Assembly (NCBI GenBank): GCA_025454875.1
Contig: JALONP010000011.1
Coordinates: 1 to 64,000 of the forward strand
From: Bacteroidia bacterium
Lineage (GTDB): Bacteria; Bacteroidota; Bacteroidia; UKL13-3
DNA length: 64,000 bases
Direction: 5' to 3'
Below are positions 23,845 to 62,099 of the stretch, in pieces. The position numbers were made by a program, and so were the translations under genes. Within the stretch, counting starts at the first letter, position 1. Each line of letters opens with the position of its first letter. The notes beneath the pieces are model-generated. The model did no database searches and had not been told where the DNA came from. It was given only the letters and a program-made list of their open reading frames with translations.

Positions 23845-23925
23845 GGGGCTTCAGCGAGGTTCGTTTCACTCACTCGCTGCGCGTGTTCCGCGGTACGCGG
23901 TACCTTGCTGCACCCGCTAAGCCAA
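23845..23925 (+). repeat. 81-bp structured repeat, copy A
   Basis: One of four near-identical copies (others at 46068, 53193 and 62019), all read in the same direction. It begins GGGGCTTCAGCG and ends CCGCTAAGCCAA. The ends pair imperfectly (GGCTT..AGCG with CGCT..AAGCC). An inner hairpin GGTAC/GTACC and a CGTGT-type stem are present. Copy A differs from copy C by one base in the inner hairpin loop (ACG becomes GCG). Confidence 0.9.
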
Positions 23926-46067: not shown

Positions 46068-46148
46068 GGGGCTTCAGCGAGGTTCGTTTCTCTCACTCGC
46101 TGCGCGTGTTCCGCGTTACACGGTAACTTGCTGCACCCGCTAAGCCAA
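46068..46148 (+). repeat. 81-bp structured repeat, copy B
   Basis: Same element as at 23845. In the inner hairpin the pair G-C is replaced by T-A: GTTAC at 46115-46119 pairs with GTAAC at 46123-46127, whereas other copies have GGTAC/GTACC. The change at 46116 and at 46126 keeps the stem intact. Confidence 0.9.
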
Positions 46149-46253: not shown

Positions 46254-46293
46254 GTCACTTCGAGTAGAGCCAAAGGCTCGTATCGAGAAGTGG
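46254..46293 (+). repeat. 40-bp hairpin repeat after copy B
   Basis: The inner loop is AAA instead of GCA, while the GAGCC/GGCTC stem is kept. It lies 105 bp after the 81-bp repeat. The 46022-46384 gap otherwise holds only spacer and the simple repeats below. Confidence 0.88.
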
Positions 46294-51926: not shown

Positions 51927-53156
51927 ATGAAATGGTACATTTTCGCATTGGGCATGTATTGCAAACTGCAGGTTTTAGCTCAAAACCTCATTCCCAATGC
52001 CGATTTTGAACAAAACATCCAAGGCAAAGTACTTGAGTGGCAGCAACCCCTTGATGATTATTACCATTACGAACAACATGCAACCAAAGAAGGCTACAAT
52101 GCCATTAATGGATTGTGCTTACTGCAACCAGAGCCTAGCGAATACTTAGTTGCCAAACTCAAAGAGCCACTTGTTCCGGGGGCAACCTATTGCATTCAAT
52201 TGCAAACATTTAAAGGCCCAACATATATTGGCTCTTTTAACCGACTGGGTGCCATCGACATTGCATTTACCGATACACCACCATTGGTTTGGCGAAGGCG
52301 AAAATTGTTTTTACAGCCACTCATCAGCTTACCCATTACCAATGCACAAGGTGTATTTACACAACCCGAACCTGCGCAGTTTGTTGCACAAGGCAACGAG
52401 CAATACATTGTGATTGGTAAATTTCACCAGCAAGATGTAACCCTACTTACCTTGCAACAAAAAAAAGAAAGCTTGTGGCGAGAGCAGTATTATGAATGTG
52501 ATTCCATTAAAAAATACTACAAATCGTGCATGCCACCTCCCCCACTCGAAACCAATAAACGCAAGCTTAAAAGGGCGCTTAAACACAATGCCGACTCAAC
52601 TGAGGAATTACAAATGGCAATGGTAGCCGATCTTAAAGCCACTGCAGCAAAGTACGCAGCCATTGTAGAGCAACTCACCTCGCACGAACTTGATTCGGGC
52701 TTTTTTCATGTGCGCATTTACTTCGATAATATTTGTGTAACCCCCAAACAAGCAGATGGATTGTGTAATTGCACCGACTCTCTTGTTGCCACTAAACCGT
52801 TTGTCGCAGGGCAATCATACCAATTGCGCAATATTCAATTTGATACCGATAAAGCTACTTTTAAACCTGGTTCTTATGTTGAAATGGATACACTGCTATA
52901 CTATTTGGTAACGTATCCAAGCATGCACATTTCAATCGAAGGACATACAGATAGTGTGAACACCGAGGAGTACAATATTGATTTATCTGAGCGGAGAGCC
53001 AAGGCAGTTTATACATATTTAATTGAGCATGGCGTTGAACCCAATCGCTTAACGTACAAAGGGTATGGCGAAAGTAGACCAGTAACTTCAAATAATACAA
53101 CTGAAGGCCGCGCCCAAAACCGAAGAGTAGAATTCACCGTAACCAAATTTGACTAA
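51927..53156 (+). CDS. OmpA-family outer-membrane/peptidoglycan-binding protein
   Basis: 409 residues. A signal peptide (ending LQVLAQ) is followed by a carbohydrate-binding-like beta domain starting NLIPNADFEQNIQGKVLEWQ. The C-terminal OmpA domain (about 290-405) has IQFDTDKATFKPGS, IEGHTDSVNTEEYNIDLSERRAKAV and GYGESRPVTSN, so it should bind peptidoglycan. It is divergent from gatB. Confidence 0.93.
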   Translation: MKWYIFALGMYCKLQVLAQNLIPNADFEQNIQGKVLEWQQPLDDYYHYEQHATKEGYNAINGLCLLQPEPSEYLVAKLKEPLVPGATYCIQLQTFKGPTYIGSFNRLGAIDIAFTDTPPLVWRRRKLFLQPLISLPITNAQGVFTQPEPAQFVAQGNEQYIVIGKFHQQDVTLLTLQQKKESLWREQYYECDSIKKYYKSCMPPPPLETNKRKLKRALKHNADSTEELQMAMVADLKATAAKYAAIVEQLTSHELDSGFFHVRIYFDNICVTPKQADGLCNCTDSLVATKPFVAGQSYQLRNIQFDTDKATFKPGSYVEMDTLLYYLVTYPSMHISIEGHTDSVNTEEYNIDLSERRAKAVYTYLIEHGVEPNRLTYKGYGESRPVTSNNTTEGRAQNRRVEFTVTKFD

Positions 53157-53192: not shown

Positions 53193-53273
53193 GGGGCTTC
53201 AGCGAGGTTCGTTTCACTCACTCGCTGCGCGTGTTCCGCGGTACACGGTACCTTGCTGCACCCGCTAAGCCAA
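53193..53273 (+). repeat. 81-bp structured repeat, copy C
   Basis: Reference copy. It is followed by an AT-rich spacer with a TACGAATTGCGAATTACG stretch, then the 40-bp hairpin. Confidence 0.9.
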
Positions 53274-62018: not shown

Positions 62019-62099
62019 GGGGCTTCAGCGTTTTTCGTTTCACTCACTCGCTGCGCGTGTTTCGCGGTACACGGTACCTTGCTGCACCCGCTAAGCCAA
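62019..62099 (+). repeat. 81-bp structured repeat, copy D (solitary)
   Basis: Same element as copies A-C with a three-base change near the start (AGG to TTT) and one in the middle (TTCCG to TTTCG). The inner GGTAC/GTACC hairpin is intact. It has no 40-bp hairpin partner. The gap 61830-62287 has no other feature. Confidence 0.88.

Follow-up and report, generated by a model that had tools for sequence, protein, structure and literature searches.

The 64,000-nucleotide stretch analysed here (positions 1 to 64,000 of contig JALONP010000011.1, from a Bacteroidia bacterium of GTDB lineage UKL13-3; hereafter the window) carries four copies of an 81-bp repeat which, judged from covariance models, is one subfamily of a large Bacteroidia-wide family of dispersed, folded elements. 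The family is apparently undescribed, and searching the literature, whether for names or for sequence strings, returned no description of the element. We put the chances at about even that it is a non-autonomous mobile element resembling repetitive extragenic palindromic (REP) sequences and miniature inverted-repeat transposable elements (MITEs), which acts through its fold or is recognised by it.

The architecture is a three-way junction of a 5-bp outer helix (P1), in which sequence is free and pairing is kept, a hypervariable hairpin (P2), and a conserved arm (P3) that combines a conserved internal loop with an apical stem. In the copy at 46068..46148 (copy B), fold prediction and covariation pair GGCTT (46070..46074) with AAGCC (46142..46146) in P1 and AGCGAG (46076..46081) with CTCGCT (46096..46101) in P2, the hairpin that varies most among relatives. 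The P3 arm (GCGCGTGTTCCGC .. TTGCTGCACCCGC, 46102..46140) is closed by 46102-46104/46138-46140 and bears an apical stem, read from the sequence and the alignment of copies, of GTTAC (46115..46119) and GTAAC (46123..46127).

A preliminary description of this DNA had reported four same-strand copies sharing their ends and inner parts, and these were recovered on the forward strand at 23845..23925 (copy A, by sequence search and covariance model), 46068..46148 (copy B, by sequence search and by cmsearch at E 5e-25), 53193..53273 (copy C) and 62019..62099 (copy D). When as many as 3 mismatches are tolerated, their 23-nt end pattern has 4 matches in the window and 0 in 100 shuffles. The paired change singled out in copy B is exact: 46116 G to T and 46126 C to A convert the GGTAC/GTACC of the other three copies to GTTAC/GTAAC. 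In copy D the upper part of P2 is broken (AGG to TTT). The source genome (G000; 2.98 Mb in 37 contigs, the window being its contig C10:1-64000) holds 17 full copies that are 93-100% identical and have flanks unrelated to one another, the P3 loop being altered in one of them, and a total of 24 copies at E<=0.05 when diverged ones are included. The alanyl-tRNA synthetase (AlaRS) of this genome is nearest to entries from Bacteroidota, several of which are Chitinophagales. No copies of the 81-bp repeat were present in the same-genus genome that was searched.

That the stem is maintained, as the preliminary description had argued from one pair, is borne out far beyond that pair. Among 19 aligned copies from the source genome, the inner pair 46116/46126 is G-C in 15 and U-A in 4 and is broken in none, so that unpaired changes at these positions, which would have made the compensation look fortuitous, are absent from the further genomic copies. 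The pair two steps further in is A-U in 18/19 and G-C in 1/19 (the diverged copy L019) and is likewise never broken, while P1 is invariant in this set. Taken alone, the change within one genome is weak evidence, because the four U-A copies could share one event and because single copies fold no better than shuffles; with single-copy z-scores of only about 0 to -1.4, the four window copies are by themselves no proof of structure. The proposed check, a covariation model built from collected copies, gave a strong signal. In an alignment of 47 elements 94.4% of cells were paired, with 148 double changes against 35 in shuffled controls and at most 25 in slid controls (the structure shifted by 1-3 columns); in 63 elements, with ends of the form TTTGGG..P1..AAA/GGG, 94.5% of cells were paired and double changes numbered 331, where shuffles gave 110 and slid versions no more than 61. 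Since these alignments were fitted to the structure, P1 was also tested separately, without a model. When the five bases adjoining the 3' motif GCTNCAATCCCN were taken, their reverse complement stood after G(G)G upstream in 32/41 instances of the motif, as against a mean of 7.3 and a maximum of 14 when five-mers were dealt at random; this test does not depend on the alignment, though it does depend on sampling, as the loci scanned came mostly from model or sequence matches. Furthermore, in 11 viral contigs retrieved by the 5' half GCGTT alone, AACGC followed CCCT downstream, at varied distance, in 11/11.

The relatives keep the architecture and not the sequence, and fall into genome-specific subfamilies of 60-120-nt elements. 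A first covariance model, built from the source-genome copies, had matches in 13/117 genomes (source genome included), and a second, at E<=0.001, in 41/395 Bacteroidia genomes and 24/196 genera; at most 11 candidates were scored per genome, and copy numbers (up to at least 11) are thus lower bounds. P1 takes the forms GGCTT/AAGCC, GCGTG/CACGC, GCGTT/AACGC, GGCAT/ATGCC and GGCGC/GCGCC, P2 ranges from a few nucleotides to hairpins of more than 30 nt, and P3 appears either as GGGCTTTCCGC-GCTAC-ACG-GTAGC-TTGCTNCAATCCC or in the GCG..CGC form of the source genome. Searching the genome contigs for an exact 44-nt string and viral contigs for a degenerate 31-nt one gave no match. Copies from different genera (L018 at C19:5160-5272 of the source genome; L070 and L075 (G024)) have in common an enlarged loop at the apex of P3, TACTCCGCC..AACCAA.GC.CACTTCGGGGTA, which looks as though elements had exchanged hairpin modules.

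Elements are placed non-randomly with respect to genes. We considered 106 elements with clear genes on both sides, gene ends being taken from open reading frames (ORFs) and not from curated genes. The TTTGGG (5') end lay at most 10 nt from the 3' end of a same-strand gene in 18/106, whereas in no case was it that close to a gene 5' end; elements placed and oriented at random in these gaps would give 5.2, and 0/5000 permutations reached 18. In convergent gaps 31/35 elements were nearer the upstream gene (p 3e-6), and the median distance from the upstream stop codon was 33 nt. Some 40% of copies do not follow a sense gene. Within the window only copy C follows the rule, lying 33-36 nt past the stop of a same-strand OmpA-domain gene (51927-53156); copies A, B and D are upstream of a gene on the other strand. 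In two families a transfer-messenger RNA (tmRNA) gene adjoins an element (L058:1007-1378 and L068:1095-1462), a link that we take as chance given opposite relative orientations and different distances.

Comparison of related genomes revealed presence and absence at individual loci, and breakpoints at the element edge. Genome G209 has an element flanked by a stop codon on one side and, on the other, by 3' sequence that it shares with its relative G238; the latter is about 119 bp shorter there, and a second element at this locus is conserved in both genomes. Genome G126 carries an element at a place occupied in G161 and G277 by a 308-aa gene, CorA transporter-like by eye. The Bacteroides plasmids p5482, pla1 and pJCM13345 agree up to ..CAATCCCTAACGCA, the exact 3' edge of the element, and are wholly different beyond it, p5482 there resembling small Parabacteroides plasmids. 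In Vibrio plasmids a 102-bp module with the element's 5' half recurs in differing gene orders.

The same scaffold is found on mobile genetic elements. A 68-nt chromosomal element of genome G043 matches a Microcystis phage (94% covered, 81% identity, model E 4.5e-11), inovirus intergenic regions (26/26 nt), and Phocaeicola, Bacteroides and Moraxella plasmids at their 5' half. A hand-composed 41-nt scaffold query retrieved 92 plasmid records from Bacteroidota and Proteobacteria, 57 of them typed as conjugative, the weaker matches reaching E near 1 and being less secure; it had no match in 5,426 E. coli genomes. On the conjugative plasmids the element is often found ahead of genes for ArdC, antirestriction, RadC or ParB and points the same way as they do, and in inoviruses (Dulem 62, Dulem 63 and IMG/VR contig L304, which has homologues of Zot, pIV and Rep) it runs antisense to the genes. 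Further carrier contigs are tailed phages with capsid, terminase and portal genes, and single-stranded mobile elements are therefore not the sole carriers. Copies on mobile elements have a long hairpin on P3. In Moraxella plasmids and an inovirus (L294:3001, L296:3001, L315:2417) this long hairpin has similar AT-rich text, AAGAAAATCTAAG..AGATTTTCTAA and AAGATTTACTAAG..CTAAGTAAATCT, and might possibly serve as a single-strand promoter.

The preliminary description had likened the repeat to REP-type elements or a structured RNA, which was right in kind (the element is dispersed and folded) and failed as membership: there is no Rfam match, no REP foot and no association with a REP-associated tyrosine transposase (RAYT). 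With Rfam, nothing in the window reached the gathering score, and no family was found at E<=1 for elements in 20 loci. Like REP-like dispersed repeats in general, the element forms many similar intergenic copies in unrelated flanks, and it shares with REP/REPIN systems (RAYT, TnpA-REP) a short, folded, dispersed form, proximity to gene 3' ends and genome-specific families. However, it is a 60-120-nt three-way junction and not a single palindrome. RAYT-associated REPs carry a GTAG or CGTC tag at the palindrome foot (PMC3733652), and this foot is absent from the 63 aligned elements. Nor is the element associated with Y1 transposase loci or genomes, and we rejected a RAYT/IS200 partner: one weak element was seen in 26 Y1 loci examined, Y1_Tnp had no match in 4/12 element-bearing genomes, and it occurs in 260/395 genomes as against 41/395 with the element. 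A Y1 transposase is thus unlikely as a necessary partner. BOX/RUP, ERIC/RU and other MITE-like repeats are similarly non-autonomous, structured, dispersed and modular, but no terminal-inverted-repeat partner transposon was found for our element, whose outer helix varies in sequence by subfamily.

We commit to a REP/MITE-like mobile element because it explains together the dispersal, the conservation at the level of the fold, the preference for gene 3' ends, the breakpoints at the 3' edge and the presence on all replicon kinds. A trans-acting enzyme would recognise the strand in its folded state, probably as DNA that replication or transfer leaves single-stranded, and spread copies that land mostly just downstream of genes, so that many would also be transcribed in 3' untranslated regions (UTRs). 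This enzyme would not be, or not only be, a Y1 transposase of the RAYT/IS200 type. Several observations weigh against this proposal. No mobilising enzyme was found. Neither a duplicated target site nor a precise empty site could be delimited, the gap of about 119 bp between G209 and G238 comparing with an element of 62 bp, and no intact empty sites were found in the plasmid and phage families examined. Some positions are conserved between species and across whole plasmid families, which also fits a kept function. Finally, one scaffold occurs with differing P2 and P3 apical hairpins, for which simple copy-and-paste offers no explanation.

Three other readings remain live and are not mutually exclusive. 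The element could be a structured 3'-UTR RNA (an mRNA stabiliser, or a processing or anti-exonuclease hairpin) kept by co-transcription with the upstream gene, which we consider unlikely. Its sense orientation close to the upstream stop codon is what such an RNA predicts, and in one phage the element sits between the prohead protease and capsid genes; but the many copies without a sense gene upstream do not fit, nor do copy sets that are genome-specific expansions untied to given genes, nor the lack of an Rfam relative. G-U pairs exceed A-C pairs in the elements (63 to 14), as expected of RNA, but the excess is due to a single pair, without which the counts are 18 and 14, and it gives no clear indication of strand. 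Unlikely too is a single-stranded DNA signal, a single-strand promoter or initiation site from which the compact chromosomal copies would derive. The models here are the F plasmid Frpo and other single-strand initiation sites and the M13 complementary-strand origin, likewise folded, found in conjugative plasmids and filamentous phages, and situated upstream of antirestriction or early genes. The scaffold in inovirus intergenic regions, the conjugative plasmids with the element ahead of antirestriction and related genes, and the long P3 hairpin of the mobile copies all point this way, and antisense placement in inoviruses combined with sense placement in plasmids would make the expected cell-entering strand the same in both, although the transferred strand and leading region are only inferred. 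Against it, the element also resides in tailed double-stranded DNA phages, E. coli genomes yielded no match, and the dispersed elements, mostly short and chromosomal, have 5-bp apical stems too short for a promoter. Sequence and architecture differ from those of the M13 origin as well and, judged from the literature, from those of Frpo.

An attC-like folded recombination site, at which a tyrosine recombinase would shuffle the genes that precede it, appears improbable. As in integron attC sites, structure is kept over sequence, the element is 3' of genes in fixed orientation and junctions fall at one edge, as seen in the plasmid divergence and in the shuffled Vibrio modules; moreover, one diverged copy (L020, C10:80343-80461) abuts a 366-aa tyrosine recombinase (L361:1201-2301, corresponding to C10:80463-81563). 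However, relatives of this recombinase at five loci in five other genomes had no element within 1.5 kb, no integron integrase (TIGR02249) scored above cut-off in any of the 12 element-bearing genomes, and the element is a three-way junction without cassette arrays. The R boxes RYYYAAC/GTTRRRY are not invariant in it, the 3' strand of P1 reading AACGC, CACGC, GGCGC, AAGCC, ATGCC and others. A cassette interpretation of +/- element pairs was rejected separately, as the ORFs between pairs look ordinary and unrelated. It is very hard to credit that chance or mutational artefact, with paired changes made by template switching in quasi-palindromes and not by selection, accounts for the fold. Quasi-palindrome correction can yield paired changes, and the shared event invoked above for the U-A copies could be of this sort, but the P1 strands are separated by about 70 nt and, in many lineages, keep 99-100% pairing through 4-5 types of base pair, and the slid and shuffled controls fail.

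A broader and speculative proposal, to which we give a low probability, joins these strands: a single cross-phylum P1/P2/P3 module of folded single-stranded DNA would act as a start or recombination signal on the incoming strand of filamentous phages and conjugative plasmids, with compact forms having spread, structure kept, in Bacteroidota chromosomes, where they would mark breakpoints of gene exchange. That dispersed chromosomal repeats in no fewer than two dozen Bacteroidia genera share one covarying fold with conjugative plasmids, inoviruses and tailed phages points to a nucleic-acid machine, so far unrecognised, that is common to them all, and the protein that reads it, once found, would explain both the spread of the repeat and the gene-content breakpoints at the element edge.

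Other repeats were noted in the course of the analysis. One Y1_Tnp gene of the source genome (L026:1165-2302) has 33-nt REP-like repeats of its own on either side, ACCACGCGAGAGGACTCGCGCGGTAGCGGGGGG, which are unrelated to the 81-bp element, and another (L023:1163-2066) is enclosed by two direct repeats of 259 nt that are 92% identical and each contain a palindrome. In the source genome a second repeat, a long hairpin GTCACTTCGAGTAGAGCC..GGCTCGTATCGAGAAGTGG, is located about 100-130 nt downstream of many element copies, after a low-complexity 'acgaattgggaagtttgaatgc' stretch; in the window it occupies 46254-46293 and the equivalent positions after copies A and C.
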